In this document: positions 16,100 to 62,759 of the stretch, one piece after another
Position numbering within the stretch: the stretch's first letter is position 1
Layout: the number at the start of each line of letters is the position of its first letter
Source of the DNA: Hemicentrotus pulcherrimus
Lineage: Eukaryota; Echinodermata; Echinoidea; Camarodonta; Strongylocentrotidae
Length of the DNA stretch: 64,000 nt
NCBI GenBank assembly: GCA_003118195.1
Contig: BEXV01000446.1
Location: 127,313 to 191,312 of the forward strand
Direction: 5' to 3'
Program-made: the position numbers and the translations under genes
Notes under the pieces: generated by a model
Database searches by the model: none
What the model was told of the DNA's origin: nothing
What the model saw: only the letters and a program-made list of their open reading frames with translations

Positions 16100-17012
16100 T
16101 TAGTTCGAAACAAAGGAGATCATTGTTTCTTCTTCCTTACTATCGTCAAATCCATTCCTTGAAAGAGTCACGTAGAGGGAGTGCTTACTGGATGGCGATT
16201 TACTTCCGGATGACTTACTGCCGAGAGATTTACTCCTCGGTCTCTTGCTCCCTCGACGGCTAGACTGCTGCTGGAGAAGAGGAAGTCCTTCAAATCTTTC
16301 ACTGTCAATACAGCTGAACAGAGACCAAGAGTGCTGCCTGGATTCGGATTCAGAGTAAATATTGTCTTCGGTCGCAGCTTTCTTCAAGAGTTTGGTGAAG
16401 GTACCCCCTGAGGGTAACCTATGCAGGAAGTTGTGTTCTAAGGTAGCAGAGGTCCTAGAGCGCCCTCTATGGATGACCGGTGGCAGATCCTCAACAGCCA
16501 CTACACACGAGTCCTGCGATGTGGATGGGGTGCTGGTGTTAGACATTGACGTTGAAGGGGCACTTGCTGTTGAGCTGATAATCGAGATGCGGTTTCTCTC
16601 TGTCTCTGAGTCGTGTCTCAGTCTGTGCGACCCACTCGGGGCAAGCTCAAAGCTGCAGCGGGAGAAGCTCCTCTTGTTCTTAGATCTGCGTTTGGATGCG
16701 CGGAAAATGTGGCCCACGCTGGCCAGGTGACCGGTGAGGAATTCGTCATCATGGATGCGGTTGAATTCACGTCCCATGTGCATTTCGGTGCTACTGTTAC
16801 TCCTGGTGCTGTGTTTGGGGGCGGGGTGCTTGGGACGGACAGGGGAGAGGGGTAGTCCGGTGCTGTGGATCTCTTCAGGGGGAATGCTGCCTAGAGGGAC
16901 GCCAAGACAGGGTGTGATAAGGTGTGGTCTTTGACAGAGGATGTCTGTTACATCTTTGGCTGTGGGTCGATGCTGTGGTTGGATGGCCCAGCACTGCATC
17001 ATCAATGCTCCT
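16100..17012 (-). CDS. v19: last receptor exon, kinase end and cytoplasmic tail
   Basis: Acceptor TTTCACAG, 913 bp, stop TAA at 16100-16102. The kinase ends with [20 protein letters not shown], then a tail of about 280 residues that is Ser-rich and basic (RRSKNKR), with stretches rich in Ser/Thr and a short repeated pattern of S-K-S/S-G-S-K near the end. Tyr residues occur in NIYSESES and SLYVTL. The latter (residues 1423-1428) fits the ITIM consensus. Strings of long ORFs on the opposite strand here are shadows. Confidence 0.93.
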
Positions 17013-20000
17013 CTGTGAAATAAAAATGTGAAGTACATACTAATCCAATATCTATTACATGAATATAACATGGGACAAAGAAATTACCCTCAAAATACAA
17101 TCTGAAAATCAAAAGATAAGCAGATCAAAGTGAACAAAGCAAAGAGGGTTATGTAGAGGCAAACTGAAATAAACAGATTAACAGGCAGCAAACAAAAACA
17201 AATGATTAAAAAGAAAAATAGAAGCAAATAAATGAGAAGTAGTTTAGAGAAATAAATAAATAGAAATCAAAGAGAATCACATAAAACCATGTGAACAAGT
17301 CATAGATACATGAATTGAATGAATCAAAAATGGTACAAATACTGATTATCTGGTTAGTACCTACATTAATCTTTCCAATGCCATAACACAACTAAACTTC
17401 TTGAATATTCAAACTGCAACATAAAATGTGTATTTGGGAAAAGGGTGTTTGCAAAAATTTAACGAAGGAAAAATATTGTTTGAGAAAAAAATTGCCTTGT
17501 GCAATGTTATTGGTGACGGTCTTTTGTAAAATTGGTGGCACCACATGAGAAGATTTACATGGTTTCAAGAAATGGGAAAGAAAGAAACAAAATCTAATAA
17601 AAAATAATTTGCAATTGTAAGATGAATCTAAAAGCTAACTACTCACAATGCTGGGCTGCATCCTTCAGGGGGTCTCAGAGAGTTCCTATTCCTGATGTAA
17701 TCCAACACCTCTGCATTGGAAAGCTCTTGGTAAGGGAAACTACCAAAGGTCACGACCTCATAGATGACCACGCCTAGCGACCAGACATCACTCATGGTGG
17801 TAAAGATGCCCTCCGTCAAAGACTCTGGAGCCATCCAGCGTACGGGCAGCTTGCCTGCAGAGAGAGGGCGACATACATTTCAGATATGAGTACACAGAGA
17901 GTTTGAGAGTCGCTTCCATTTAAAGAAGCAGTAGGGAAATCGGTGCATATTTTAGGAGTGAACATTTGAGTCTACAAATCATCCGCTCTTAGGCAGAAGA
18001 GTGTCAACACAACTAATTTATCGCATCGTTAGGACCCTTCAGACTATAAAGGAATGCTTAAAGACATCAGATATTTCCTTTGATAACAATCTAATATAAG
18101 CTAGACGGTTTATATATCCAACAAAAAATGTCTAAGCAAATAGCTATTGTAACATGTTCATCTCTATGAAAGATAAACAAAGAACGAAATTCATTTGTGT
18201 AACTTTTCATGGAAAATAATTTACAAAAAGAAGGAAATTGGCATAGAAGATACAATGTACTGACTCATGAGTATATACAATATTGCAAGTATATGCTAAC
18301 TGCATGTAATTCCTGTAGATCTATCATGTGTTGAATTATGAAGCATTTCACAAAAACAAGAACTTGACAAAATGAAAATTATTCTTGACCTCTATGATGG
18401 AAAAAAATTCAGTTGCTAATTTACGATATATATACAGTCAAAGACTTACTTCTTTTGCCAAGCCTATAATAGTCGGAGTCGTAGAGGGCTCTTGTCATAC
18501 CAAAGTCTCCAATCTTCACTGTATAGGATGCATCAACCAAGCAGTTTCTGCATGCTAGGTCCCTGTTATATAATCAAAATGAATATTTATGTAACAACAA
18601 TACAATTGAGTTTTTTTAAAATTAAAATTAGTGCCATGAGCTTATTGACATGGATTCTTTTTCCTCTTATTCTGATTAGGAATTTATAATAATAATGATG
18701 GTGTTGATTTGTGATTTGATATTGCACTAATGGTTCTGTAATCACCAACATCAGAAAACGCTGACACAAGATAGACCTCACCATCTGATTGATATGGTGG
18801 TCATGTTGAAGATACATGTACTGATGATGATCATCATGATAGTGAAGATGATGGAAGGGGTGATGATGATGAAGTTGGTGGTGATTGGTGATGCTGATGG
18901 CGGTGATGATGATGATGGCAGTGATGATAGTGAAAGTGGTGGTGGTGATAATGATGATGGTGATGATGGTGATGATGAAAATGATGATGGTAATGATGTT
19001 GCTGGTAATAATGGTGGTGGTAGTTTTGATGGTAATAATGATGATAAAAATAATAATTCTAATAATTATAGTAAAGAAAAAACAGTATCAATTGGAATGT
19101 TGTAACTTGATCAAAAGGTTAGCCCAGCAGATGAGAACTTTTTTACCCTCATCATTACAATACATCACTATAACCTTCCTTGCAAATTTCATCTCACTTT
19201 CATTTGTCATCGTTTATTCTTCTTCTTCATCTCATCTCCATCACTCACCTATGCACATAGTTGATGCTGGCTAGATAGCTCAGACCTGACGCTATATCTG
19301 ACACCATAGACGTGAGTTGGTCTGGACACATGACATGTTGATTCCTCTCATAGACGCCCTCACCAACCAGATGACGACGTCCAAGGAGGAAGGTTTTTAA
19401 GTCGCCTAAAGGTAATCAAAAACAAGTGTTTTGGGACTTTGTTGCTACACGAAGATGAGTAAGATATTGTAAATTACATAACATATGTCAAACATCATGT
19501 ATGTTCAGTTGATCGGGAACCATGACATGTTGATTCCTCTCATAAACCCCTTCACCTACAATATGATATACTACCAGGAAGGTCTTTAGATCACCAAAAG
19601 AAGAACATAATAACATACGGTACACTTTTTTCTTTTTTAAACCAGAGTATTCATTCAATAGATGCAAATAGTGGTTAAAATATATCATATGAATATCATA
19701 ATGTGATTTGATTTGAACTCGTCAAGGAAGATACATATTTAAAGCGTTAGAATCATAAAATGAAAAGGAACACAAAACATGACAGAATAAGCCATTGGCA
19801 TATTTTAGCTTTCAAAGGTAACTTGTTAAAGTATCTATTCCTTCTATAACTATAGGAGTATGATTAAATACTTTCATATGAATATCATAATGTGATTTGA
19901 TTTGAACTCGTCAAGGAAGATACATATTTAAAGCGTTAGAATCATAAAATGAAAAGGAACACAAAACATGAAAGAATAAGCCATTGGCATATTTTAGCTT

Positions 20001-23000
20001 TCAAAGGTAACTTGTTAAAGTATCTATTCCTTCTATAACTATAGGAGTATGATTAAATACTTTGTATCTGATATGTCACATTTATGTATATATTTTTACC
20101 CCTAATTAAGTTGAATAAAAAAACATCAATCTTGAATAGATATGTGGTGTTCATTATAGTCCAGATATATCTGTTAACATATTTGTGAAAGTTAACAGTT
20201 TCTTTCAGCAGCGATATCAATTTCAGAACCACATTATGATCTTTAAATCTGTTTATCCACACAATCATAAACTTTGTTACTGATTCTATCTTTAAACAGA
20301 ATGACTACTTTATAATTTTCTGGGTCAATGAGAAGCATTTAAACTCCATAAGCTCTTCAGCAACTTGTGCGAATCACTTAATGATATTGCTTTAAATGTG
20401 CTTACCATATAGCATGAATTCCATGACTGCATACATGGGTTCCCCTCTGGTACACACTCCTAGAAGGTTGACGATATTCTTATGGTTGAATCTCTTCATT
20501 ACCTCAGCCTCACTTAGGAAATCAAGCTGAAAAAGAAAAGAAAAAAAGAGAGGAGGAAGTTAGCATTTTTGTTATAGAAAGAATCTAATTACATCTTGAT
20601 CTTGCATCCTGGGCCTCCTTTGATATACTTCAAAGATTCTTCTTGACATCATGATTGGTACATTTAATTAAAATGTAAACTGGTTTCAGAAAAGTCTTCA
20701 ACTTTTCCTCTTATCTTAACCTACTTTGGAACTAAAATACTCACAGTGGTCTTATATCTAAAAGGCAAATTGACAAGTTCTGAGGATAGAATGATAAATT
20801 GTAATAAATATCTGTAATGCATGTTCGTTAACAGATTATGTTTGCTATCAAGACTTCTAGGGAAAAGTTTAGAGACTGTCCCATCAGTTCATAAATACTG
20901 TAAAAATATTTAGCTAATGCTATTTTCATAATATATATTCAGACTAATGCATACTTCACAGCCTAAAGTTCCTCCCAAACATCTCTGCAATGGTCAGAGA
21001 TTTTCTCATCTAGCAAAAACATCAGAAAAGTCTGAATAAAATAACTTATCACAAGTGAATTACACAGTTTATCCGTAAGCATGTGGGGAAGAAAAGTCCA
21101 GATATTTTGAATTTATGAATGGAATTTAGAAATAAATATATGCATTCCTTGTAATGGGTTATCCTGTCTCACCTTCTCCTCCACCGATGCCCCCAGCTTC
21201 AGGGTCTTGACTGCCACGGCGGCCCATTTATTATCATCCAGCAATGCCTCACCGCCATACACCGTACCAAACGCTCCCTCTCCTAGCTTCCTGTTCAGTA
21301 CCACATTCTCTCTGGGCATCTCCCAATCGTCTAGAGTGATTAGGGCTCCCTCGCCCAGCCCCATCAGGGTGAGCTGCTTGATGTGCTGCTCAGTACGCTT
21401 CACCTTCCTGTCGTACCTGGTGCATGGAACAGAAACAACAAGAAGACTTCAATAAAAAGTAATTTTTTTAAACATTTGATGTAATATATCTGATACTTGA
21501 TACTACATGTACAGATCGAAATCGGCCACTTTGGGGGAAAAGTTTTGGCTACACAATACAGAATGTTTTTCATAAATCATCTCAATTTTTCAAGATAATG
21601 AAAGTATGATCACTCTAATTGTTTCCCTTTCCTATTAAAAATCAGTTCTGAGAAAAAGAGGAACAAGAACTAATCCTATAACATGATAGCCAGGGAGAAT
21701 AACCTTAGCATCAGTGTGCAGCATAAATAGAGGCTCATGACTATACACAAATGCACCCTATGGAAATAAAGAAAGTGTGTACATGGATACTAGGCTTGTA
21801 GATTAGGAACTAATAGACTGAATAAATTAACCCCTATTTGAGAGACTTAACGAGGACATCTACTTGGTTTGAACTCAAGACCTTCTGGTTAAAAGACCAC
21901 TGCTAAACCACTAACCCATCATGATAAATGGTACAATAATAATCAAATAATTCTTTCTGTAAAATTAAGAAAATTGACAAAGTTGACACTTTGAAATAAT
22001 GCTCCATAAGTGGATGCTACATTCAACCACTGCTTTCTTGAGGTGTATACCTTCTTTTGATGAAGACAGCCAAGATGATGGTTGAGACGAGTATGACAAG
22101 GAGGAGGATGGTGTTCATGAGAGCAATAGCTGTACGACAATCTGATCCAAGGGCTTGCCTTAATCCTTCTACCATACAGGTGGGTCCTGAAACATGAGAC
22201 AAAAAAAGTACATATAATTTTTTAACTAATTTTGTTAATGGTTATGATCAAATCAATAGTCAGTTGATTCTTTTTAACTTTCATTAAAACTATAAACTAT
22301 GTTTAACTGTTCATTATTCTTTAAATTCAGGCAAATGCATATTAATGGTCAAGAAGTCATAACATAATACTGTCCATGTGATATCTATGATTCAGACTTG
22401 TCACATTGTCAAGTCACATATCTAATACATCAACAAAAGTCATAAAATGAAATTACACAAAACAGAATATGATTTATATGACTTGTATTTTGAAGATTTT
22501 TTTTTTCTCCTTCCACCTAGTAAAGCTTCTTTGGGAGGTTTCCAAATTGGCCTACCATTTGCACCATCCGTTGGCTGGCTACCTGAAGCCCACATAATTC
22601 CTGATGTATTAAGTGATAACGAACCCTGGTCCTTTGTATCCATATCAGGAATGTAGGAACCAATGATCTGCAGTGCAAGAAAACAAAAGTACAAAGCATG
22701 TTTTTTTTAAAAGTGATTAAAGACAAAATAATTGACAAAAGGCAAATGTAAACAACGAATAAAGACAAACAAAGACCGAGTATAGTCAAAGGAAACAAAT
22801 ATTCCATCATAGTTTGATGAATATGCATTATTCACTAGAGAAAATGATGAATTTCCAAAAGATTTGCAGCCTTTTGCATTGGTATCTCAAGCAGACTTTG
22901 TCTCATATTTAGGGTTAAGTGTGACTCAATGGAAAATACAATCAAGTCTCAGTTTTTGAAAGACAGATAGAATTAGCAAGTATCAATGGTCAAAGAAAGA

Positions 23001-32000: not shown

Positions 32001-35000
32001 TAAAAAATGTCATATCTGCTGAGAGCCAGAAGGACATTAAATATGTGATAAATCTCTTTTAAGTGATATGAGATAATGCCCTTCTGGCTCTGGAGATATT
32101 TTACCATCAACTTAATGTAGCTGAGTTAGCTCTAGTTGGTGTACAAAGAGGACATGTGTTGACAAAATTTCTGCATCTGCTTGATTTCCTAGTATCCAGG
32201 ATAGGATTGGCAAGCCATCAACAACAAAAGCCATTCCATTCTTTATTCCCTCTCTTACTATTTCAACGCAAAATGAACAAAAGAATCACAGTATCAACAC
32301 CACAAATAAAAATCTCATCTTAAGCCTAAAATCGATGTCACTCACTCTATCTCTTCTCTGTCTGTATTAAGAGTCAGATCCTAAAGTGTGGGGACATTCA
32401 GGAGATGGCAAGTACCATCAAACCCCACTGCAGCTTCAGAATGACATTGATCTTTTGAGATCCAACATGAACCTAGATATCAAAACCAGGCAGGGTTACC
32501 ATGCATCAAACAGGCCTATATGCCACCGAGAGTCCCTGTCAGTCCATAATCCCCCGCATTCACTTGGGACATCACCGCACTGGAGATTAGAGCCCAAGCA
32601 CGAAGCGCCCTGATCATTCTCACATGGTGCAGGAGTAACGTTGCATCTCTGACATGTCCTGACCATGAACCAAACTGAACCTGACCAGGACCATGTAGCC
32701 TGTTCAGACTAAAGGAAATTTATACAAACCTCAAATGAAAATAAGATTGTATAAGAATCATTGTATGGCAAAAGGAGCAGACAGACTAGAACACAATATC
32801 ATATAAAGGAACGTCAAATAAAGAAACTCGTTTTGAAGAGGTCAATTGACAAGACATTAACTATCCAATCCTCAGTACGCACTCACAATAAGCCCCATCC
32901 AGTTATACGATTTTCAAACGTAACAATGTTTAGACTAAAACAAGACGCTGATTCTTAAATGCGTTTTCATTAGAAACAATGCTGAAACACGCGTTTTGCT
33001 ACATGATGTTTTGTTTACGTTACTTTATAAAAAACGTTCAGACTAGTAACAATTAATAATTAAAAGTAATAACTTATTGAATAAATATACAATGAATTCC
33101 GTAGTCTGAACGCATGCAGGAATAGATCCCACCCATCAGGTTAACTTCTTGGAAGGTGACTCAGCGATTGTCATCACCCTCCCACCCTTTATTCGAAATG
33201 ATCTCTAATCCATGGCCATTTTTTTTTCAATTGTCTGGCTAAGCTTTATGATACGAGAAGAAGCTGTTGGTTTTGTAATTGTTTTATTTTTGCAATTTCC
33301 ACAAATGGCTGCAGGGTTTTTCGAAATTTCACAACACATGAAATGAGCTCCATTAAAACTGAGGTTTCATGTAACTGACTTGCATTTTTGACAGCTAGGT
33401 AAAGGTTGTGTGGAAGATTGAGAATGTCTTCCTCACAAAATAGAGGTCTCCCTTCAATGAGAAGATAGTGCACATACCATATTACCACTTTTGCTATATG
33501 AATTTAATGTTATCATATTAGAACCAAGGTTTAACTAATCTGCACAATCATGTTTTGAACAAGGCCTAGGTAATCCAGACAATCCTGTTTAAAGGGCAAA
33601 AATTTTGCTCTAAAATGGAAACTAGCATTCATTTCCAATTTCCTATACCCTAAAGCTTTTCTCTGTTTCAACTTATCATGACTGACCTTTGGAATGACAA
33701 GGTCTATCAAATCATGTTAGCTATATGTACTTTTTAAAACATAGACAAGGTATGAAAATGGATTTCACTGAAGGCTTGCAATCTTAATCTACAGAGAGTC
33801 CAATATCTCTATACTACAATACACATATCTATTTTTGTATTTATCCCACCGCTGCCATCCAAAATCTTTAAAATTAATTCAACATGTATTTCTGATGAAT
33901 TAAAACTTGATTTCTCCCAGCATATTCTTTCAATGCTTAACGTGTGTAAATAAATTAATAAACATATAATACAGGTATTTCTTTCTCTATTTCTAGATAT
34001 CCTGACATATTTTATTTAGTTTTGATATCATATCCTTACCATTTCTCCTTAGAAAAAAAAAATCACTACAATGCTACAGCTAATGTCAATCATAGTCAAG
34101 AAAGTGATCAGATAATTTAAGGCAACCAAACAAGGGTTTTATGAGAATGGTTAAGCAAGAGAACAGGATCTTCATTCCTCCTCCCCCCCCCCCCATCTCT
34201 TAAACAACACATTCCAATATCATGCCCCATTCAGGACAGCTATCTGTACTTAAGCGTGATGGTTTCTAATGAAGAAGATTTAAAGTCTAGGAGTTGAGAT
34301 CTTACCGTGGTTGTAGGAGGGTGGTGCTGATGGATGCTGATTGGTCCTCTGCGATCTTGATCCATGAACTTGACCTCTCCGGTGACCCCACTGAATGATG
34401 TATTGCTCAGATGCCTCAGGTATGTTCTGTGATACAAGGAAGATGAAAAGTTACACATATGTGATATATGTTTCACTAAAATTCATCAGAGGATTTTCCA
34501 TTAAATAGGGTTTGGTAATATGACCACGTATATTATGAAGGCTGAATCATATTCATAATTGTGAAATTTGTATTAATTAAAATGATCAATCAAGTCCATG
34601 ATATCATGCATTGTCAAATAAAAAAATACAAAGCATTTACATGACTTACTATCATCATACAGGTATTACATTTTAATGGATCATATCATACATACTTTAA
34701 TATAAAACACAATTCCTCAATCTTCATCAACCAAGACTGACATGTATAACAATGAAAAACAAAGTAAAGTGATAAAGACATGGAAAGCTCATGACCAGGG
34801 GGGTGTTTCACAAAGATCCCAAGTCGAACTTAACTCTAAGTTGGACTTAAATATTATGGAGAGCCATTTGTAGCCTTATAATGAAATACATTCAACAGCA
34901 AAATTCAAGTATTTTAGACTTTTCATAAATTCCACATCAAGAACATGAAATCTCCCAAGAAAATAGACAATATGAATGATTTGAATCAACATTTTATGCC

Positions 35001-38969: not shown

Positions 38970-39024
<55 letters not shown>

Positions 39025-48000: not shown

Positions 48001-51000
48001 ATGAAATTGTGTTTCAGTGTCAAATAGGTCTTTGCCTGCAAATGACATTTCTACCTCTACATGTATATCTTCTTGAACAAAAAAACAATTATCAGAAAGA
48101 AGAATATTCCTTGACTACTGGGCCCATCCTGTGAAAATAAAGGCAAATTAATGTAAATCAAACCAAATCATCAATTTGTGACTATCATTAAAAAGCTCAC
48201 CATTGTTCTGTGGTATCTGGGAAGGTCCTGAAGTAGTATGGGTACTGGTCTTTGTTGGAGAGGCTTGGTGAATCAGACTGGTAGCTCACGACGACGGTGT
48301 TGAGGAATCTGGAGACACTACCAACGACCTCAGCTTCTGAGGAACACATGGGTCCAACCAAACCTATCGCAATAAAATGACATACAATTTGTTAATACAA
48401 TGAAGAGCTTGATGTTTATATAATCCCAACCTAGGTTCATGCAGATAAATTCTGGAAAATTACCTACAGGAGATTTGCCTCAATCTCCATAAAACAAAAA
48501 TACATAGGTGTGAAATACAAGTCAAGGGACTGCAAGCCATTTCCACAGGAATCAGTCTTTGAAGAACACATTGAAGCAATACTCCTTTAAAGACCTGTCC
48601 TGTCCTAAAAACTTACCTGCAAGTAACCGCAATCGGTTCAAGTATAAGGACTGCATCCCGTTTCCATGGATACAGTAACTGCAGGGCACATTGAACAGAT
48701 AGGATAGGAGAGTCCCCTTTCCTTTGTTACACTGTTACATGGTCATGACAGGCCACGATCTTCACTTATCTTGAAATTTCAGTGGAGGAACGTCTGAAAG
48801 GTATACCATACAAACCTTGAATGGAATGGAAAATTACCTGCAAGTGATTGGCCACGATCTTTATAAAATTTAAGGTAAGAGAGGAGAGATGTCTCTAGAC
48901 TGCATCTCGTTTCCATGGAAACCAGTCTTTGAAACTACACTGATAACACAAAAGTACCATACAAACCTTGAATGAAATGGAAAATTACCTGCAAGTGACT
49001 GGCCACGATCTTCATAAAACTTGAAGTAGGAGAGGAGAGATGTCTCTGGACTGCATCCTGTTTCCATGGAAGCCAAGGTGAGCTTGTAGCTTGGAAGGAT
49101 GATGGGATCAGCATTGACTGCATCTATGGCCATCCTTGCTCCTGGTTCGATACCAGAGTTTGGTGAGGTGAGGTCGATGAGGGTCTCAAACAGCCCACCA
49201 AGGAGAATGGTTCTCTTGATTCCTGCAGATCCTGTTTTAAAGGGAATTCACAGAGATGATGAATACTGTCTACAATATTGATTTGTAATCAGTTAGAACA
49301 CTTTCATACATTACACTATGTGAATCATTAACATAAATCAAAACAATTATAAATTATGAACTTGAGGATTTTAGGACAGCTATCCAACTACAGGCTAAAT
49401 ATTCCCAGACAATAATCCCTGTTCAATTATTTCTTTGAGCAATCATCCGTTAAATAATTACCCCTGAGGTCAATTATTTCTTCCTGCTCTTGGAAAACTA
49501 CAACCAAAGACAATTACTTCACATACCAAAATCTACTCCTAATAGTAATAATCAAGTATACAGTATAAACATGCTTCTTTGTCTATTAAAGAGCACTTGT
49601 CCTTGAGTCTGATTTAAAGTGTCCATGAGGGAGAGGCGGAGGGGTTGTTTAGTCTTAGAAATGTAATTGTTCTTGAGATGCAGATCTAATTTGTTCAGAT
49701 GGGCGATCGTCTGAAAGGTAGTTGTCTACACAAAGGTCTTGAGATGGACACAAGCCGGGATAGACTTACCACTTGGTATCCATGGCTCCCAAGTCCCGCT
49801 GTTTCTCTGCACCCACTCGCAGGCAAACTCTGCCATGTTGAGCCGACTGAAGTAATAGCTGTACATGATACCCTCCATCTTAGAGCTGGAGAAACTGACA
49901 TCCTTCAAAAGATCATATATGTAAGGGGCCCCCACCACTAGAGGGCGCCAGGCTACCTTGTTGACGTTCTGCCAAGGGAAGTCGCAGCCTCCAGTGACAC
50001 CGTCTACATCTGGTACTACATGGAGACAGAGTGATGCAGTATTATCTCCTGGGATATTGGCAATTTAAGGACATTAGGATTTTTAGTGGTCTGAAATTTT
50101 TGAAAAATTGACTAAAATGGTGTGAAAAATTGACTTATTTTCTCAGCTCTGAGTATAAACATATGAAAATTAAAGTCCTTTCATCTTTTCATTTATGCAA
50201 TCTCCATCCAGCATGTTTAAAACATTTCCATCTCCCTCCATGTGATGATCAAATGTTTAAAGTATTACAATACATATATTGGAATGCTTCTAATTAATGA
50301 TGAGTAATTCTTAACCTATAATCAGCTTTGGGGCAATTAAATGACCTTTTGAGAATCTCCAATGCAAGTGTATGTCATTATTAAAGTGCTAACTTATTGA
50401 TAAGTTTCATACATGTACAGTTAACGACTAAATAATTTATACGCATTGTAAATTTCATGTTTTGGGATGTTTTTCCTAACTCAAAAGTGAAAGGTGGACT
50501 GGTTGAATTAGGGCCTTTGTTGTTTTAATATGGCCCATTATCAAGAAACATAATCAGGACAATTCAATTTTTAACAAACTTTGAAAATTATGAAACTTTG
50601 TAAGGGTATGAATAACTTAGTTATCTGTATTTCCAGTAATACTTAATAGAGCACAATCCATAACAAAGGGATATAGCTCCAGTATAATAGAAGTTCATAG
50701 GTATACACAACAAGAAGTGTCTTATTTTCTTACCTGCCGCATTTTCTTGGCATGATGGGAAGGCGACACGGCTGAATGCACCTGATGAGGTCAGGTCATC
50801 AGGAGTCCAGCCAAAGAACAGGGTGTGCTGGTTCTTCTCTTGTCTCTGCTGGACCGTGGACTTGAGGTTCGGACCGATCCAAGCCACGCCCACCATCAGG
50901 CCTAGGCTCTGGATCTGGTCGGTCAGTTTGTCAAAGTTGGATTCTATTGAAACATGAATAAGAACAGAAACAGCATACAACAGTGATGGCCTTTAACTTC

Positions 51001-52698: not shown

Positions 52699-52739
<41 letters not shown>

Positions 52740-55700
52740 NCCTTCTCTCTCCACTTAGTTGTAATATATGTCATCTTTAAGTTGTTTTCCCTGTGTATTT
52801 ATATTCAATGCGGTGTCTTTATGATTTTGTTTATGTTTTTAACACGGACTTGCTGAAAAGCAGTCTGTTTAGGCTGATGTGAGTTTTCTGTGATGAAATA
52901 AATGAAATCAATCAACCTATATATATATTCATTATATCAAGTGAACCAACCTTTTAGTTATATGGTGTTAGGAATGATAGATAGAGGTATATTCTTGAAC
53001 CTATAGGGATCCTATGACCCTTTTGATTGAACATCTTGATAATTAGAAGTGCATCACCATTCTATTCAATGGAATACATACATGTATGCATACATTACTT
53101 ATGGTCAAATGATAATGAAATTCTTCTAGCATGCAGTCTTAGAACATTTAAGAGCAAAGTCCAAATTTACTTTCTTCATAATGCAATAATTAGATTTTGA
53201 CCCCTTTTTGGCACACTGACAAATGGAATAGATTACACATTAAGTGATTTTCAGCGAAATGGAGCACATAGAAATCATTATACCATTACCAGGCACCTGT
53301 TTCATGACGTACTTAAGCCTGCAGAATACTACCTACTTAGTAATTAATCATAATTGATTGAAAAAGCCAGGCTTTCCTAATACATGGTCCAGGGTAATTG
53401 AAGTCAGTGCTTTAACTTCTTAGGATAAGAAGTAGAAAAGAACCAATAGAGGATATTGAATTACAGGCAAAGCTGGTTTGTGTTTGCATAAATTCCTTCC
53501 TGATTTTCCTTTCTCCCATCCATCCCTGATGTCAATTAAGCTGCTGCAAAGAACTGAAGGTTATTTTGAAAATGTGGAATGAGGCAGAGAAGTTTTGAGA
53601 CATTATTTGGAAGCCAAGAGACGCAGGAGGAATGAATCAAGATAAAACTCACATGCATGCTTAGGAATACCAAACTAACAAAGGAGACCGATAACAATTA
53701 ATTTTTCACATAATGCTACGAACAGGGTTGACTGCATGGCTATAGATATGGGCAACATTATTAGAATCACTCTTTTACAAATTTCAAAATATACTTTCAA
53801 GGATACTTCTTTTTTGAAAGACATTTTCTCTACAGGTATACCTAACATTGAATCACATAGCTCCCTATTCCACAATGTACAGAATACCTGTTCTTTTCAT
53901 CAGAAGATCTGAATGTTATCGTAAATCTACATCCTAGTTCAGATCCTGCACTACCCCTCCCTCCTTCCTACAATTATCTACTAGACAATATTATCCATCT
54001 ATGATTTTTTTTAAAAATCCACCTAAACCACTACTGCCTTAGTGATGATCAACTAGTACCTGATATAGCTTGCATACCTACCCCATGACTAAACCTCTCT
54101 GGAACCTCTGACTACAAAACTCTTAAATACCATCTGAATAACTTTTACCTGGATAATTAACCCCTAGGAAAATGAACATCAAGTATGGTGATGATTATTA
54201 TGAATTTGTGATTATCTGGGGAGGGGCATATGTCTGGATGTAAGTTACATGGCGGAATGTAATCTGTACCACTGATTTTTATTTTTCCAAGGGAGATTAT
54301 CATCTGTGAAGTAGCAGTCTCTGAGGTAGTTGTAGGAATACTAGGATCTAAAGAACACAATAGTACTAGACTAGTGATCATACTGTACCCGGATAATCAG
54401 CCAACAGAATGACACACTGTGAGTTATCCTGTGTGCACCATGGCGGATAGTAGACACCGTTGGTGCACTCCGGCCTGTCACAGTACCTCTGACCCTTGAA
54501 CATGGCTGTAGCCGCAGACTCGGTGGTCAGCGTCTCGATCTCGTTGGTGGAGATGGTCAGGTAGGCGGTCATCTGTGAGTTCTGCAGGACCCTCCAGTGG
54601 TCAACGATCAAGCCGTCCACACTGTAGAGGTTTGTCACCAGAGCAGTAGAGACATACCAACCAAACCTAGACAGGAGAGATGATTAAGTTGAGGAATCAA
54701 TTGCTTACATGATTAGAGAGACTACTCAAGAAAATAAGAAAGGTCCTCTTTCTAAATGGATGAGATTTATTCTGTAAACAGGGAGCATTTATAAAGGGGC
54801 CTTCATTACGAGAGTATTGGTTGGCTTTTAGTTTGTGCTCTCATAGGTGATGCTATGGGGTATCCATCAGAGTAATTTTATTACAGGCATTAAATGAGAA
54901 TAAAAAAATAATATTTGTTTAAATTCAAAAATCTGAATGGAGATAACTAGGCTCTTAAAGAACACAATAATAATAGCTTGGGTATAAGAGTCTAATATCT
55001 CCTTTGCTACTATCAAGGTTGTATAATCAAGGCTAAGTGACGAGGTGATAAACTGTTTTAAGAAACAACGTAAGCATAAAGTATTTAACATTTCTTTTTC
55101 AAACTTTCCAAAATAGTAGATGATTACTCCTCTGTAACAAGCAAACTAATTCCTCACCTGGCTTGAATCCCGATAGGACCAAGATCAACAATCTCCTGTG
55201 TTTCCATCCAGGGTTGTAGACTTAGAGGATCATCCAGCCACACTTCTGCATCAATTGATGGTGACCAAATCGTTTGAGTGCTCTTTTCTTCACACCTGCA
55301 GAGATAAATATGGGGAAAAGATGATTAGAAATGTAAAAGCTCCATAAACCCTCTTATCAGCATTCATCTTTTAATAACTCCAAAGGCAGTTTAAATTACA
55401 ACCTAATATGTCTACGGAGTTAGATGGGGTAAAAAAGAAACATAGAGTACTCTTCTGGACAAGCTCTTCATAGATATCTTTGACAAATATTCACAATATC
55501 AATAATTCTTAAAAGCAAAAAGACCATTCTTTTGTGAGATTTAAGATGCAAGAGGAAATTGATTTGTTGAACATATACAGTATGCTGCATGTTATAGCTG
55601 CAGGGGGTCCACTTGTTGTAGTTAATAAAGGCTTTCTTCTCCCTTTTCCATAGTTTCTATGCATGAATAAAGATGTCAAGAAAGGCGGATGAGGGAGGGG

Positions 55701-61700: not shown

Positions 61701-62759
61701 TATCTTGAACTAATATTTGGAGCTCAAGTTTAGAGCTGGTGAAAACATTATTTGTACCTTGGGGGCTATTTTCCCCGGATAAAAAATAGCGGGTTATTTG
61801 GCAAACTCAAGCTGATGAAGACAGGACTAGAGAAGTTCATGCAAGCAATAAAAATTTAAGTAAGGTGCTATAAATTCCCTTGTATGAGTGACAAATATGG
61901 TTAATAAAACCTTTGAAAATATAGAGCATGTTTCTGGAGGCGGTGAGAAAGAGACCAGCTGGGACCTTGGAATCCACAACATCATGATAACATGAGTAGG
62001 AGTACATGCTGTAATTAATCATTATGGAAGCATTATAAGGTGCTGGTTTAACATATTCATGTTGACACAAGTAGTCATTCACGAGAGCAAACATTTCACC
62101 TGTCTTTCATCCAATTCATACTTGAGTAGTGTAAACTGCCCCGATCTAAAAGTGATCTACAGTATGTTTCAACTAAAGAAGAATGTTTAACTATTGTCTT
62201 AAAATTCAAAATATCAGTTCCTGAAGTTAAATACCGTAGTTTTTACCATGGCACAGTGATTCTATCAGCAAAACAACAACAAGAAGCAGATAGCCATGAA
62301 AATTTCAAAAATAAATATGGTGAAAACACTAATGAATATAATGTAATAGATGATGCAGAAAGAACTCATGCAAACAAAAAGGTAATTTTACATGATTGAT
62401 GCAAAATGAAGTAATGAACAATAAAGAGGAAAACATAGAGAAAATGAATCTTGAGTATCAAAAGACTTGGGGCAAGATATAAAAGAGAATTATGGAGTAC
62501 AGGTTTTCAAGATATTTTTTATTAACAACTTACATGGCATTGGTGCAGCCAGTGATCTGTGAGACTGACTGGGATGTTGAGATGACTTTTGTATCATCCA
62601 TTGCTATGGTAACATTGCTGTAGCCCATAACTTCTTGGAGTAGTATCTTCAGCACCTGATTGGTGAATGCCTGGGATGGACGCCATGATGATGTACTGCC
62701 CCCTAACACCACAGGATAAACAGCCCCATCAACCACAAAATGCTGTTTAGACTCAAAAT
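16100..62759 (-). CDS. VKR: Receptor tyrosine kinase of the Venus kinase receptor type with an extra N-terminal OpuAC-like module (gene span, 19 exons seen, 5' end missing)
   Basis: Hand-spliced gene. Nineteen exons (listed separately as v1-v19) join in frame at every GT/AG junction into 1448 codons plus stop. Order seen: OpuAC-like class II binding-protein region (about residues 1-365), class I Venus-flytrap domain (366-800), single transmembrane helix (838-861), tyrosine kinase (about 900-1165), Ser-rich tail to 1448. The predicted product is a single-pass plasma-membrane receptor whose outer part binds a small ligand and whose inner part phosphorylates tyrosines. From family knowledge, Venus kinase receptors have a flytrap, one helix and an insulin-receptor-like kinase, and some respond to amino acids. 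The N-terminal module is additional. No convincing signal-peptide exon was found, so the start lies upstream or beyond the window. The donor of v12 is uncertain. Function is inferred. Confidence 0.85.
17013..18449. other. Receptor introns around v18; nothing notable
   Basis: Apart from exon v18 (17647-17854), the two introns (17013-17646 and 17855-18449) are AT-rich and show no repeats or ORFs worth noting. Confidence 0.6.
17647..17854 (-). CDS. v18: receptor exon, kinase C-lobe (PVRWMAPES)
   Basis: Acceptor CTCTGCAG, donor CATT/GTGAGT, 208 bp. It encodes [39 protein letters not shown] and [27 protein letters not shown] identifies a tyrosine-specific substrate loop and is close to insulin-receptor kinases. 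Joins v19 through a Leu codon. Confidence 0.95.
18450..18562 (-). CDS. v17: receptor exon, catalytic loop, DFG and activation loop
   Basis: Acceptor TATAACAG, donor AGAA/GTAAGT, 113 bp. With v16 it gives [11 protein letters not shown] (catalytic Asp at residue 1039, Asn 1044) and [17 protein letters not shown]. The activation loop has the Y...YY arrangement of insulin-receptor-type kinases (Tyr 1065, 1069, 1070). The usual HRDLAARN reads HRDLACRN, a Cys at residue 1042. All catalytic residues are present. Confidence 0.95.
18794..19075. repeat. GAT/GGT trinucleotide low-complexity tract
   Basis: GATGATGATGG-type triplets over 280 bp in the intron between v16 and v17. The resulting plus-strand ORFs (Asp/Gly-rich or Met/Val-rich) are composition artefacts. 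Confidence 0.9.
19249..19405 (-). CDS. v16: receptor exon, kinase C-lobe up to HRD
   Basis: Acceptor CCTTTAG, donor CATAG/GTGAGT, 157 bp. It begins [10 protein letters not shown], continues through a VYERN insert-like stretch, and ends [17 protein letters not shown], the helix that leads into the catalytic loop. A decayed copy of its first half lies at 19503-19605 in the upstream intron. Confidence 0.93.
19503..19605 (-). pseudogene. Decayed copy of the first half of exon v16
   Basis: Minus strand reads [20 protein letters not shown], then [10 protein letters not shown], closely matching v16 ([20 protein letters not shown]). The acceptor AG of v16 (TTTAG) is changed to TTTTG here and the copy stops before SDIASGL. 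It lies about 100 bp upstream of v16 in transcript order. A non-functional exon fragment. Confidence 0.8.
19686..20063. repeat. Two nearly identical 189-bp tandem copies
   Basis: 19686-19874 and 19875-20063 differ at only about one base (ACATGACAGAAT against ACATGAAAGAAT). Intronic, very recent duplication or assembly artefact. Confidence 0.92.
20406..20526 (-). CDS. v15: receptor exon, kinase alpha-C helix and hinge
   Basis: Acceptor TTTTTCAG, donor ATG/GTAAGG-like, 121 bp. It encodes [25 protein letters not shown], and [16 protein letters not shown] at the hinge. The Glu of SEA (residue 951) matches the Glu that salt-bridges the catalytic Lys. Highly similar to RTK N-lobes ('fl.EA.vMk.f.H.niv.LlGvc'). 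Confidence 0.93.
20527..21172. other. Receptor intron v14-v15; nothing notable
   Basis: 646 bp, AT-rich, no repeat or ORF recognised. Confidence 0.6.
21173..21416 (-). CDS. v14: receptor exon, juxtamembrane and kinase N-lobe (Gly loop, catalytic Lys)
   Basis: Acceptor CACCAG, donor AAG/GTGAGA, 244 bp. After a basic juxtamembrane stretch comes a 'W E M P R E N V' entry like insulin-receptor-type kinases, then [12 protein letters not shown] (residues 908-919) and VAVKTL with the catalytic Lys at 934. No Tyr is found between the helix and the kinase other than the first juxtamembrane residue (YDRK). Confidence 0.93.
21834..21925 (-). mobile_element. tRNA-derived SINE fragment (minus strand)
   Basis: Minus strand: GGGTTAGTGGTTTAGCAGTGG followed by GAGTTCAAACC (B box at 21866-21876), a degenerate tRNA-like head as in the copy at 46417. 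In the intron between v13 and v14. Confidence 0.55.
22051..22186 (-). CDS. v13: receptor exon, transmembrane helix
   Basis: Acceptor TGTTTCAG, donor AAG/GTATAC, 136 bp. It encodes [17 protein letters not shown] and then a hydrophobic run from AIALMN through [13 protein letters not shown], stopped by KRR. This is one helix of about 24 residues with a positive inside flank, placing the kinase in the cytosol. The two Cys before the helix may pair. Phase matches v14 (shared Arg codon). Confidence 0.9.
22517..22667 (-). CDS. v12: receptor exon, flytrap end and membrane-proximal stalk (donor uncertain)
   Basis: Acceptor CACTGCAG, then [20 protein letters not shown] and [19 protein letters not shown]. 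Three in-phase GT donors fit, each adding a G to complete the Gly codon of v13: after position 22517 (used here, ending PPKEALLG), 22556 (ending DGANG), and one further upstream in the exon (ending MWASG). Protein length differs by 13 or more residues and frame is preserved. The short stalk links the flytrap to the helix. Acceptor and core are confident; the 3' limit is not. Confidence 0.75.
24329..24720. repeat. Degenerate tandem repeat, three copies of about 130-155 bp
   Basis: The motif GGCTCATCAACATAATTCAC at 24329, with related copies at about 24451 and 24606, each followed by 'tgaaatac...' and 'caatcct.tgagaaa'. Overlapping small ORFs are artefacts. Confidence 0.65.
26449..28540. repeat. 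Dispersed direct repeat, four copies
   Basis: Copies start near 26449, 26742, 28218 and 28447 with GTTCTCTTTAATTTCCATTT, then 'caggtagctaa..tcataacaaattatcctt'. The second copy breaks off where the piggyBac-like element begins, suggesting that element landed in this repeat array. Confidence 0.65.
26796..28029. mobile_element. Non-autonomous piggyBac-like DNA transposon, 1234 bp
   Basis: Flanked on both sides by TTAA (26792-26795 and 28030-28033). Left end CCCTTTGAGAGCGAGCCCG; right end, read inward, CACTTTGGAGACGACGGGC: imperfect inverted termini. TTAA target duplication and a C(C/A)CTTTG start are typical of piggyBac. Base composition differs from the flanks (more GC, including a GGACGCGCGCGTACGCGTCC palindrome near 27713). 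No transposase ORF is present. Confidence 0.75.
32011..32100. repeat. Small palindromic element (GCCAGAAGG family)
   Basis: Left arm GAGAGCCAGAAGGACATTA, right arm TAATGCCCTTCTGGCTCT, able to form a hairpin. Related copies at 45581-45652, 15647-15720 and a fragment near 14880. Confidence 0.75.
34306..34426 (-). CDS. v11: receptor exon, flytrap FxGVTGxVxF motif
   Basis: Acceptor ATCACAG, donor ACG/GTAAGA, 121 bp. It encodes [20 protein letters not shown] and then [11 protein letters not shown]. 'sF.GvtG.vkF...gdR....' is the closing motif of flytrap domains just before the C-terminal strand. Phase 0 at its end leads into IIGSYIPD of v12 across an 11.6 kb intron. Confidence 0.9.
34427..38295. 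other. Receptor intron v10-v11; no gene recognised
   Basis: Holds the 327-bp inverted-repeat element and a decayed SINE at about 37870-37985 (CAGTGGTCTCACAATC ... GTGCCCTACGATAAGGCATT). A C/G-rich patch lies at 37290-37360. ORFs at 35240-35870 and 37423-37954 have no recognisable domains or exon logic. Confidence 0.6.
34791..35117. mobile_element. Inverted-repeat element (MITE-like), 327 bp
   Basis: Both ends read ATGACCAGGGG.GTGTTTCACA inward, and homology of the arms continues for about 80 bp (34791-34870 against 35040-35117 reversed). No coding content. In the intron between v10 and v11. Confidence 0.85.
38296..38423 (-). CDS. v10: receptor exon, flytrap helix [15 protein letters not shown]
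   Basis: Acceptor CTTGTAG, donor CAG/GTAATG, 128 bp. It encodes [20 protein letters not shown] and ends SSQQTIR with v11. 'a.YDavwa.A.ALd' is a hallmark helix of class I flytrap (ANF-receptor) domains. Phase matches v9 (0) and v11 (two bases carried). Confidence 0.9.
38588..38671. mobile_element. Short inverted-repeat element, about 84 bp
   Basis: It starts AACCCTTTGCTTCTGGAACC and ends GTAGTCAAAGGGTTAAC. A relative at 44579-44657 begins TTAATCCATTGCCTACATGA and ends TTGTCAGTGGGTTAA. Ends resemble piggyBac-type TTAA elements, but the copies are too short to be sure. Confidence 0.5.
38969..39023. repeat. (CT)n microsatellite
   Basis: About 26 CT units with one interruption, in the intron between v9 and v10. 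ORFs across it are artefacts. Confidence 0.95.
39554..39835 (-). CDS. v9: receptor exon, flytrap lobe 2
   Basis: Acceptor CTTTCAG, donor GAG/GTGAGA, 282 bp, exactly 94 codons. It starts [20 protein letters not shown], like 'glyG..yvWfl.gwy' in GABA-B receptors. It then encodes an Asn-containing, less conserved stretch, [20 protein letters not shown] and a [12 protein letters not shown] end. Phase 0 on both sides. Confidence 0.9.
40081..40265 (+). mobile_element. tRNA-derived SINE copy
   Basis: TGAGTGGTAAGCCAGTGG (A-box region), GGGTTTGAAAC (B box near 40127), then GTGCCCTTTGGTTACAAGGC and AGGTCCCTTGGAGAGGACTT, a tail shared with the copy at 46417. Confidence 0.7.
40289..40467. repeat. Direct repeat pair with C runs
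   Basis: ATCAAAGCAACTATCAAACT occurs at about 40291 and 40399, each followed by 'catatca.', 'gactttcaa' and a poly-C run. Two copies about 108 bp apart. Confidence 0.8.
40544..40823 (-). CDS. v8: receptor exon, flytrap lobe 2
   Basis: Acceptor CTCTCCAG, donor CAG/GTGGGT, 280 bp. It encodes [20 protein letters not shown], a helix with [16 protein letters not shown], and [20 protein letters not shown]. 'l...FgW...ails' followed by an 'i.ivg....va..lcea.k' strand-helix matches flytrap lobe 2. Phase 0 at its end matches v9, which starts [10 protein letters not shown]. It is separated from v7 by a 7.4 kb intron. Confidence 0.9.
41144..41571. repeat. Four identical 107-bp tandem copies
   Basis: AAAGAATTAAAGAACAAGAG recurs at 41144, 41251, 41358 and 41465. 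The four units appear identical over their length, each ending TTCATTCAGAACCATATC or similar. Perfect identity implies very recent amplification or an assembly artefact. Confidence 0.95.
44579..44657. mobile_element. Second copy of the short TTAA-ended element
   Basis: Shares CCAGYTGGCCY, ATGGAAATGAA-like and the inverted CAGTGGGTTAA end with 38588-38671. In the intron between v7 and v8. Confidence 0.5.
45581..45652. repeat. Small palindromic element (GCCAGAAGG family)
   Basis: Left arm TTGAGAGCCAGAGGGACAGT, right arm ATGCCCTTCTGGCCCTCAGC. Same family as 32011-32100. Confidence 0.7.
46417..46625 (+). mobile_element. tRNA-derived SINE, best copy in the window
   Basis: A box TGGCTCAGTGG (46427-46437) and B box GGTTCAAAACC (46470-46480), then a body containing GTGCCCTTTGGTAAGGCATT and CAAGTCCCTCAGAGAAGACT. 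The head looks like a tRNA gene with a broken acceptor stem, so it is a SINE and not a tRNA gene. Confidence 0.8.
46910..47440. repeat. Degenerate tandem repeat, three copies
   Basis: CTTGAAATCAGTAGAGA-type motif near 46919, 47172 and 47355, each followed by a 'cccag.agagaaaatgt' block and 'tgtcat.cc'. Unit about 185-250 bp. Confidence 0.7.
47546..47879. mobile_element. Inverted-repeat element with ATACCGTATTT ends, interrupted by a gap
   Basis: Left end ATACCGTATTTGCCGGTG, right end read inward ATACCGTATTTTCCGGTGT; inner parts with ACGCCGCA also mirror each other. The centre (47627-47734) is 108 N between an A run and a T-rich run, as expected when a hairpin breaks assembly. Confidence 0.8.
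47627..47734. other. Assembly gap (108 N)
   Basis: Run of N inside the inverted-repeat element. ORFs translated through it as X are meaningless. Confidence 1.
48201..48363 (-). CDS. v7: receptor exon, flytrap ligand-pocket motif
   Basis: Acceptor GCGATAG, donor AATG/GTGAGC, 163 bp. It encodes [14 protein letters not shown] and then [20 protein letters not shown], ending [10 protein letters not shown]. The pair 'GPmCSSea' and 'vSY.s.SpsLs....YpyfFRT.P' is the classic lobe 1 ligand-binding signature of GABA-B-like flytraps, where the Ser after the Cys contacts the amino-acid part of the ligand. The last codon becomes Cys with the first base of v8. Confidence 0.9.
48460..48925 (-). pseudogene. 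Three decayed tandem copies of the 3' half of exon v6 with its donor
   Basis: Next to v6 (donor side ATTACCTGCAAGTGACTGGC on the plus strand), similar sequences start at about 48464, 48614 and 48836. The 48836 copy is closest: minus strand reads [15 protein letters not shown] and then [12 protein letters not shown] with the same GCAG/GTAATT donor, but the first half of the exon is missing. The older copies keep only CTTACCTGCAAGTAAC or similar and the GTTTCCATGGA block. Confidence 0.75.
48989..49222 (-). CDS. v6: receptor exon, start of the Venus-flytrap domain
   Basis: Acceptor ATCTGCAG, donor GCAG/GTAATT, 234 bp. It encodes [10 protein letters not shown], then a helix [19 protein letters not shown] and [20 protein letters not shown]. 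'LGGLF', the AIDAVN helix and the following strand with a Cys-containing turn are the start of class I flytrap (ANF/GABA-B type) domains. Three decayed copies of its second half lie downstream in the next intron (48460-48925). Phase fits v5 and v7. Confidence 0.88.
49223..50733. other. Receptor introns around v5; nothing notable
   Basis: Introns 49223-49769 and 50016-50733 show no repeats or ORFs beyond shadows of exon v5. Confidence 0.6.
49770..50015 (-). CDS. v5: receptor exon, end of the OpuAC-like domain
   Basis: Acceptor ATGTAG, donor AGTG/GTAAGT, 246 bp. It encodes [15 protein letters not shown], a predicted helix [15 protein letters not shown], and [21 protein letters not shown] final 'a..Wv..n...W.pWi' is typical of the C-terminal helix of OpuAC-type domains, so this exon probably closes the first binding module. 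It joins v6 through a shared Gly codon, IPSG followed by IKRTILLGG, which is the module boundary. Confidence 0.82.
50734..50943 (-). CDS. v4: receptor exon, OpuAC-like second lobe
   Basis: Acceptor TTTCAATAG, donor GCAG/GTAAGA, 210 bp. It encodes [20 protein letters not shown] and then [12 protein letters not shown], which resembles the 'vfyWWTPd.lf' strand of bacterial glycine-betaine binding proteins that closes the cleft. A 70-bp copy of the first part of this exon with its acceptor lies just upstream (51003-51073). Phase with v3 and v5 is correct. Confidence 0.82.
51003..51073 (-). pseudogene. Duplicated acceptor and first bases of exon v4
   Basis: CAGTTTGTCAAAGTTGGATT and the acceptor region TTCTATTGAAACATGAATAA recur 77 bp from their place at the 5' edge of v4, almost unchanged. 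The copy lacks the rest of the exon. Confidence 0.85.
52046..52640. repeat. Degenerate tandem repeat with TATCTTCAAATAATCAATA core
   Basis: Core at about 52098, 52211, 52361 and 52517, with flanking 'gctgatt.gg.taagata.atag' before and 'ttgaatta.aatga' after. Unit about 115-155 bp. It ends in the (AT)n run. Confidence 0.7.
52702..52739. repeat. (AT)n microsatellite
   Basis: About 19 AT units, ending at an N, so the true length is unknown. Confidence 0.95.
54389..54666 (-). CDS. v3: receptor exon, OpuAC-like region with a cysteine-rich loop
   Basis: Acceptor TGTCTAG, donor CCGG/GTACAG, 278 bp. It begins [18 protein letters not shown], continues VDHWRVLQ, then has a cysteine cluster around [17 protein letters not shown] before [10 protein letters not shown]. 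The cysteines suit a disulphide-bonded extracellular loop. GC content is clearly higher than in the flanking introns. Adjoining codons with v2 (Arg) and v4 (Glu) are completed correctly. Confidence 0.82.
54667..55157. other. Receptor intron v2-v3; nothing notable
   Basis: 491 bp, AT-rich. The 74-codon minus ORF here has no exon logic. Confidence 0.6.
55158..55295 (-). CDS. v2: receptor exon, OpuAC-like region
   Basis: Acceptor CTGCAG, donor AG/GTGAGG, 138 bp. It encodes [18 protein letters not shown] and ends [11 protein letters not shown], continuing into FGWYV of v3. The pattern 'aevW ... dlG.iG..r.GWyv' is what I know from OpuAC-like binding domains. Phase matches both neighbours: it receives two bases from v1 and gives two to v3. 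The peptide has no stop, and the fit on both sides supports the exon. Confidence 0.8.
58378..59110. repeat. Tandem repeat of about 190-210 bp, three copies
   Basis: CATATCCAAATAAAA-type motif at about 58386, 58591 and 58772, followed by 'gtcttacaacc.cattgca', GAGGTCCAGATCAGCTGAAG and 'aagactaggagctt'. The third copy is split by the hairpin element 58871-59015. Confidence 0.8.
58871..59015. mobile_element. Hairpin element (MITE-like), 145 bp
   Basis: Left end GGCCCTGTTTAATAAAAACT, right end read inward GGCCCTGTTTCATATAACTT, with TTGTTATCAATAACAAG inside. The flanking tandem repeat resumes on the other side with GAGATCAGCTGAAGATTG, showing insertion. Confidence 0.85.
59980..61150. repeat. Degenerate tandem repeat of about 150-200 bp, seven copies
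   Basis: Core 'gtgactcaa..at.taacagcatgaggagttc' near 60108, 60265, 60471, 60568, 60748, 60920 and 61097, then 'gctc.gaatttgggctc.ttttaattgc' and GGGGAAACACA. Intronic. Confidence 0.75.
61470..61826. mobile_element. Inverted-repeat element with AAATAGC..GCTATTT palindromes
   Basis: Left end TCATCAGCTCTAGTTTGCCA, right end read inward TCATCAGCTTGAGTTTGCCA, both followed by AAATA.CC.GCTATTT. Similar AAATAGCAGGCTATTT palindromes recur inside (61500, 61540, 61573, 61630). No ORF. Confidence 0.78.
62534..62759 (-). CDS. v1: first visible receptor exon, OpuAC-like lobe start
   Basis: The acceptor follows a long pyrimidine tract and reads TTACAG; the donor is AT/GTAAGT. The exon starts with two bases completing a codon from an unseen exon and encodes 74 full residues. 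VVLGG followed by [10 protein letters not shown] and [14 protein letters not shown] resembles the start of lobe 1 of glycine-betaine-type binding proteins, where a beta strand and a helix carrying QEVMGY precede the ligand pocket. The last codon is completed by v2 to give TNAMCEE. It is separated from v2 by 7.2 kb. The family assignment rests on motif resemblance. Confidence 0.75.

Follow-up and report, generated by a model that had tools for sequence, protein, structure and literature searches.

Venus kinase receptors (VKRs) have been presented in the papers, in the passages cited here, as receptors with one ligand-binding module. They have a role in reproduction in Schistosoma, serve as receptor of OEH in Aedes and are treated as drug targets; silencing of the VKR of Anopheles coluzzii is reported to be without effect on fecundity (PMC6401105). 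Amino acids, chiefly L-Arg, act through the Venus flytrap of these receptors, which dimerise (PMC4026697), and SmVKR2 responds to calcium (PMC4038586). A serine residue of the flytrap lies at position 66 of the flytrap alignment (PMC3703292), and it is Ser466 in SmVKR1, Ser410 in SmVKR2 (PMC4038586) and Ser505 in AgVKR, where we read the mutagenic primer as LGPACAETVEP (PMC6401105). The sea-urchin gene, SpVKR, has been reported to cover 60 kb and to contain 21 exons, the flytrap starting at exon 9 (PMC3703292). In the literature passages on VKRs no domain is named for the part preceding the flytrap, and a search of the open-access literature for VKRs together with OpuAC or betaine returned no paper naming such a module in VKRs. 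Both the gene described below and its family are already known: what is new is the identity of the module preceding the flytrap and its spread among VKRs.

The window (the whole stretch of 64,000 nucleotides of Hemicentrotus pulcherrimus DNA that was analyzed) contains a gene of 19 exons on the minus strand, running from 62759 to 16100 and spanning 46.7 kb; all exons given below lie on that strand. Exons were chosen by scoring splice sites and phases, and the resulting model was then compared with a database protein found by protein search, the predicted Strongylocentrotus purpuratus protein XP_011677253.1 (P0001). All 18 introns were bounded by GT...AG, the phases were consistent, and the joined frame of 1449 residues (after the correction of exon 5 described below) showed no inner stop and one terminal stop. 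Within the aligned region, 1421 of 1449 residues were identical to those of P0001 (98.1%), with two gaps of one and five residues. The earlier note on this DNA, which had proposed 19 in-phase exons as one gene model, was borne out in this respect by the introns, the phases and the match to P0001, and all eight motifs quoted in it (8/8) were located in open frames of the minus strand. P0001 carries 34 additional N-terminal residues (MREYIF...) that resemble a signal peptide; five short motifs from this N-terminus were looked for in the window as marks of a signal-peptide exon, and none was found. Frames near 46349 and 32719 were considered as further exons and rejected: the phases of the neighboring exons join across them, P0001 does not contain them, and they matched no Pfam family at E<=1.

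The part of the model that follows the first module carries what is expected of a VKR. The class I Venus flytrap starts in exon 6 (48989..49231) and continues through exon 7 (48201..48363, containing the GPMCSS and YFRTFP motifs), exon 8 (40544..40823), exon 9 (39554..39835), exon 10 (38296..38423, with YDTVW) and exon 11 (34306..34426, recognized by a ten-residue motif) to its end in exon 12 (22556..22667). All seven were placed by the splice and phase model, supported by motifs in exons 7, 10 and 11 and by the comparison with P0001 in exons 6 and 9. At the exon 9 junction P0001 has five more residues (VRLDE, aligned as EVRLD), which are absent from a short S. purpuratus model (P0003). The Pfam scan, run on the model before the exon 5 correction, gave 200.9 bits for ANF_receptor (PF01094), and the best PDB match of the P0001 flytrap, taken without the five-residue insert at the exon junction, was GABA-B subunit 1 (4mqe, 2.3e-41). 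Ser465 in GPMCSS (codon 48341..48343, minus strand; Ser500 in P0001) corresponds to Ser66 of the flytrap alignment in the literature (PMC3703292), and Arg503 in YFRTFP to the conserved arginine of VKR flytraps, an equivalence judged by eye. Exon 13 (22051..22186) encodes the only hydrophobic run between flytrap and kinase, 20 residues at 22059-22118, recognized by inspection.

The kinase was assigned to exon 14 (21173..21416; juxtamembrane part and a 15-residue stretch with the glycine loop, also seen by Pfam), exon 15 (20406..20526), exon 16 (19249..19405, up to the VH of VHRDLA), exon 17 (18450..18562, found by a splice and phase search and containing the catalytic loop DLACRN, DFG and SDYY), exon 18 (17647..17854, PVRWMAPE) and exon 19 (16100..17012), an open frame with the kinase end, the cytoplasmic tail and the stop codon; exons 14 to 16, 18 and 19 follow the splice and phase model. 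The translation contains all the kinase motifs (GxGxxG, VAVK, HRDxAxRN, DFG, YY and PVRWMxPE), and PF07714 scored 296 bits, again on the model before the exon 5 correction. On these motifs and this Pfam match the predicted kinase is assigned to the insulin-receptor-like type. Since the kinase motifs, the single helix, the ANF_receptor match, the GABA-B-like flytrap and the conserved flytrap serine all point the same way, the predicted product is identified as a sea-urchin VKR.

Other kinase-related sequences were noticed in the window. Just upstream of exon 16, minus-strand positions 19491-19721 hold an apparent decayed copy of that exon (GDLKTFL and a further stretch of 13 residues). At 2983-4553, also on the minus strand, lies a second kinase-like gene whose exon-like frames include a glycine loop, NDLKEDNCLL and DFGL; one of these frames scored 17.2 bits for Pkinase (cut-off 31.7). 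Frames at 1339-1709 of the same strand resemble the last exon-like frame of that gene, which suggests a partial copy of it.

The part preceding the flytrap is encoded by exons 1 to 5, all of which match P0001. Exon 1 (62534..62759) starts in mid-codon (phase 2), has a CAG acceptor and a GTAAGT donor, and encodes the start of lobe I. Between exons 1 and 3, only exon 2 (55158..55295), with the EVW motif, was in phase and scored above the limit; a candidate at 62106 with weak splice sites was dropped in its favor, as exon 2 fitted both the phase and P0001. Exon 3 (54389..54666) contains GWY, HWR and a four-cysteine insert, and its donor, GTACAG, is weak but in phase and in agreement with P0001. 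Exon 4 (50734..50943), placed by the splice and phase model, belongs to lobe II and carries the FFGWTPD motif. At 50924-51080 lies an 83-base tandem duplication (1.9 copies, 94%) by which the acceptor of exon 4 and the beginning of this exon seem to be present twice, leaving two possible acceptors. Exon 5 (49770..50048) closes the module with a stretch of 19 residues. Comparison with P0001 moved its acceptor from 50015 to 50048, 33 bases upstream in the same phase, which adds 11 residues. Accordingly, the module that the earlier note had placed at residues 1-365 was present, with an end that had to be corrected: it comprises residues 1-377.

This first module proved to be related to bacterial substrate-binding proteins of the OpuAC type. 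The OpuAC family (PF04069) scored 22.3 bits with the module alone and 16.7 bits in the whole protein, in the model before the exon 5 correction, with the Pfam cut-off at 21.2; at E<=10 an OpuAC match was seen in only 8 of 13 modules (12 from VKRs and one from Capsaspora), and it is precomputed in the database entries P0002 and P0005. A single-sequence search of PDB gave as best solved relative 4xz6 (TmoX, 0.0007). With a profile of 12 VKR modules, without Capsaspora, the match to this TMAO-binding protein reached 1.4e-12, and adding the Capsaspora module brought the best PDB value to 6.3e-14. The 12-module profile retrieved eight PDB rows in all at E<=10: after 4xz6 came 3l6g, 7yle, 7ahc, 2b4l and 2reg (0.00019 to 0.011), and the remaining two were antibody fragments (0.36 and 1.2). 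By their names or papers, 3l6g, 7yle, 2b4l and 2reg bind betaine, choline or DMSP; for 7ahc the only name given is ABC transporter permease subunit, and in the alignment with the profile that includes Capsaspora its aligned stretch is identical to that of 3l6g. Against PDB chains most of the score, and its significance, comes from the C-terminal half; the stretch toward the N-terminus that holds the EVW and GW motifs contributes 5.7 bits against 4xz6.

Both lobes were covered when the VKR modules were aligned with six bacterial relatives. These six proteins came from five of the eight records obtained in a search of plasmid records with the Capsaspora module; the module of Owenia gave one weak match in the same records (E 0.04, limit 1). 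The best match to the Capsaspora module in this collection, and the sole one to the Owenia module, was the first of two adjacent substrate-binding protein genes in record L001 (Nonomuraea gerenzanensis). On the VKR side, the family consisted of 12 related modules, including that of P0001, a near-identical homologue of the window module; 22 columns were invariant in all 12 (12/12). Hhalign gave a probability of 99.0 over 270 columns spanning the module. The score was 132.5, well outside what chance would give: none of 100 column-shuffled controls exceeded 22.5, reversing the alignment gave 15.8, and the flytraps of 13 VKRs scored 13.9. A reading of the first module as another class I flytrap found no support, the module profile having an hhalign probability of 0.14 against those 13 flytraps. 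Bacterial contamination or late transfer was likewise rejected, because the module is split by introns and present in distant animals. From sequence comparison, the first module is a real class II substrate-binding domain of the OpuAC/TmoX type, predicted to occupy the membrane-distal residues 1-377, and we hold the anatomy of the gene together with this kinship to be nearly certain. Pfam, PDB, hhalign and motifs thereby agree with the order proposed in the earlier note: an OpuAC-like class II module, a class I flytrap, one helix and an insulin-receptor-like kinase.

The same order was found in other animals. Fourteen VKR-like sequences were retrieved: two echinoid sequences plus the short S. 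purpuratus model, one annelid, two bivalve and two crustacean sequences, a wasp, a beetle and four others. The module was present in 13 of them, covering echinoids, the annelid, bivalves, crustaceans and insects, and in these 13 it was followed by flytrap and kinase, although the kinase core is missing from the beetle model (P0019), which the trees do not include. As a rate this proportion is biased toward sequences with the module, which was part of the queries, and a match depends on shared words of five residues: VKRs without the module would be missed, and cnidarian, cestode and fly VKRs lie outside the sample. A search with an alignment of four sequences yielded three VKR entries from echinoids along with five other kinases, and failed to recover two of the four sequences in the query; little can therefore be concluded when a sequence is absent from these word-based searches. 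The module alignments omit P0006-P0010, in which there is no such module, P0003, whose sequence starts within exon 6, and P0015, which is nearly identical to P0014; P0015 was kept in the 13-row pocket counts. In trees built from 12 sequences each for the module, the flytrap and the kinase, echinoids, bivalves and crustaceans formed a group of their own every time, and three of the four unassigned VKR sequences fell into these groups; the deeper branches were long and differed, and the position of the annelid was unstable. Database entries for VKRs carry other names (guanylate cyclase gcy-8 for P0003, atrial natriuretic peptide receptor 2-like for P0015 and insulin-like peptide receptor for P0016), and by these names the family is hidden.

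The sole exception, P0003, bears on whether exons 1-5 might be a separate gene wrongly joined to the VKR exons. This NCBI/UniRef model starts within exon 6 and dispenses with exons 1-5, which speaks for such a joining; however, it begins inside the flytrap with no visible signal peptide, and we take it for these reasons as a truncated model, though it has been counted against the module. The phase fits at the exon 5-6 junction, module and receptor share the same order in 13 of 14 sequences from distant animals, and the residue numbers or lengths of the cloned insect cDNAs AmVKR, SgVKR and AgVKR, as given in the passages cited, leave room for the module, so that a wrong joining seems hardly credible. 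SgVKR, a cloned cDNA, has 1277 residues, and the DFG of the honeybee receptor AmVKR is at 1031 (PMC2680970), a motif we counted near 1056 in the wasp sequence P0004. Roughly 340-440 residues, signal peptide included, would precede the flytrap in the schistosome and mosquito VKRs, and the published numbers show room for the module, which is room and not sequence, in SmVKR1, SmVKR2, AgVKR and AmVKR. Published tables in which exon 1 or 2 of some VKR genes already holds the flytrap (PMC3703292) were counted against ubiquity of the module. A fusion confined to sea urchins was rejected, as annelid, bivalve, crustacean and insect VKRs also have the module. The 13 VKRs and the published residue numbers together argue for a neglected part of a known family and not for a new sea-urchin fusion; the premise of the earlier note that known VKRs have only the second module outside did not hold, with the first module in 13 of the 14 sequences retrieved with module-containing queries.

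Next to kinship, the pocket bears on whether the module may still bind a ligand. TmoX binds TMAO through Trp55, Trp102, Trp177, Trp222, Phe106, Phe220 and Glu131 (PMC8918994), and in PF04069 proteins the cage for a quaternary amine consists of three to four aromatic residues (PMC8918994, PMC10030565), according to the passages cited. The positions of Trp102, Glu131, Phe220 and Trp222 were counted along the profile-4xz6 alignments; Trp55 and Trp177 lie outside them and were placed by spacing through the bacterial relatives, where the spacings of 47 residues (Trp55-Trp102) and 45 residues (Trp177-Trp222) agreed with the numbers of the paper in four of six proteins, the two Nonomuraea proteins having a spacing of 48 and no YPADW. 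Residues were then counted in one alignment that combined 13 VKR modules with the Capsaspora module and the six bacterial proteins. At the Trp102 position all 13 VKR modules have tryptophan (Trp94 in the window, 55238..55240; P0001 Trp128), and at the Trp222 position 12 do, the other having tyrosine (Trp259, 50807..50809; P0001 Trp293). The tryptophan of GWY (Trp124, 54657..54659; P0001 Trp158) is shared by 13/13 VKR and 6/6 bacterial rows, and the Phe220 position holds Phe or Tyr in 11 of 13 VKR modules. At the position equivalent by spacing to Trp55, arginine is found in 13/13 VKR modules (Arg26, 62680..62682; P0001 Arg60) and tryptophan in the six bacterial proteins and Capsaspora. The Trp177 position is never tryptophan in VKRs (0/13; Asn, Asp, Phe, Tyr or a gap); four of six bacterial proteins and Capsaspora do have tryptophan there. 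At the Glu131 position, VKRs carry Phe, Ile or Leu. A full aromatic cage was thus absent from the 13 VKR modules: two cage tryptophans are kept, one is arginine and one is never tryptophan. These counts describe a predicted pocket that is conserved within VKRs, yet not as a standard betaine cage. An osmolyte or betaine-like compound as ligand of the module, offered as an example in the earlier note, is a conjecture.

The incomplete cage, together with the loss in VKRs of the PHW motif seen in five of six bacterial relatives, would also fit a structural relic, in which the class II fold has lost its ligand binding and is kept as a spacer, as a dimer contact or to help the flytrap fold. Two further facts lean the same way and were counted against a sensor role. 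The module changes faster than the flytrap and the kinase, with identities between window and P0001 of 363/377 (96.3%) for the first module, 456/463 (98.5%) for the flytrap and 285/286 (99.7%) for the kinase (55/56 for the membrane and juxtamembrane part, and 262/267 for the tail). Moreover, L-Arg activation of VKRs needs the flytrap serine, mutation of which strongly weakens or ends it in the passages cited (PMC4038586, PMC6401105). However, the positions of the TmoX cleft are among the most conserved of the module, as the arginine, Trp102 and Trp222 equivalents show, and such conservation is not expected of a pure spacer; a relic is therefore disfavored, and we find it rather doubtful.

The four-cysteine insert of exon 3 (Cys183, Cys188, Cys198 and Cys205; 54414..54482) is not common to the six bacterial relatives, and it might instead mark the module as a docking site for a protein hormone of the neuroparsin/OEH family. 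OEH of Aedes both binds the mosquito VKR and activates it, and a 2015 review points to the puzzle of so large a molecule being bound by a flytrap (PMC4522560). Against such docking, neuroparsins are, according to that review, known only from arthropods (PMC4522560), while the module is also found in echinoids, the annelid and bivalves, and the literature passages map no binding site; this alternative appears distinctly improbable.

The reading that we prefer, with a probability of roughly 0.55, is that of two stacked modules with the distal class II module as a second sensor. The proximal, GABA-B-like class I flytrap would bind an amino acid (L-Arg in other VKRs, according to the papers) and drive a rearrangement of the dimer and activation of the kinase; the distal class II module would act as a second regulatory sensor, closing on a small ligand and, once closed, shifting or tuning the flytrap dimer. 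Taken by itself, the proposal that the first module has a ligand-binding regulatory role falls slightly short of even odds, and the most likely role for it, as far as sequence can tell, is that of a second sensor or allosteric module. Our best guess for the predicted ligand is a small amine or zwitterion that carries an acid group: the invariant arginine suggests the acid group, and the two kept tryptophans suggest a methylated or cationic group. A wider scenario, which we consider quite unlikely, is that VKRs as a family, at least across protostomes and deuterostomes, are dual-sensor receptors in which a re-tooled ancient TmoX/OpuAC module would sense a zwitterion or methylated amine, with its acid group on the invariant arginine, and gate the amino-acid-driven flytrap kinase; in gonads and larvae, the supply of amino acids would thereby be tied to osmolyte or one-carbon status. 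If the outermost module is a second binding protein, VKRs would be animal receptor kinases that carry a class II and a class I binding module one after the other, and the module must be included in ligand screens, in models of dimer activation and in any account of the way in which a neuropeptide such as OEH is bound by a flytrap receptor. By their residue numbers, the recombinant VKRs used so far probably already contain the module.

Compared with known systems, the gene shares with SpVKR and the VKR family a GABA-B-like flytrap, a single helix, an insulin-receptor-like kinase (HRDLACRN, DFG, YY and PVRWMAPE) and a long multi-exon structure, and it differs in that a class II substrate-binding module is predicted where the cited passages of the SpVKR and VKR papers (PMC3703292, PMC4026697) assign no domain. 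With TmoX of Ruegeria pomeroyi (4xz6) and the other betaine, choline and DMSP binders of PF04069, the first module has in common the profile match, the Trp102 and Trp222 equivalents, the GW tryptophan and a C-terminal pattern ending in tryptophans before the module end, whereas in VKRs it is fused to a receptor kinase, Trp55 is replaced by arginine, Trp177 and Glu131 are lost and a four-cysteine insert is present. Modules of this type also occur on other eukaryotic receptors. Capsaspora CAOG_08459 (P0020), found by protein search, combines an OpuAC module with a class C seven-helix domain, and OpuAC domains have been reported on fungal class C receptors, e.g. of Allomyces (PMC3251606), so the use of such modules by receptors of eukaryotes is ancient and has in part been described. 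The Capsaspora module matched the VKR profile with an hhalign probability of 98.7; its pocket has tryptophan at the Trp55, Trp177 and Trp222 positions and asparagine at Trp102. Its output is by seven helices and not by a kinase, and no class I flytrap is listed for it (Pfam PF00003 and PF04069 only). As in the VKR described here, class I and class II modules are stacked in one receptor in ionotropic glutamate receptors, in the opposite order, with class I distal and class II at the membrane, and with a channel as output.
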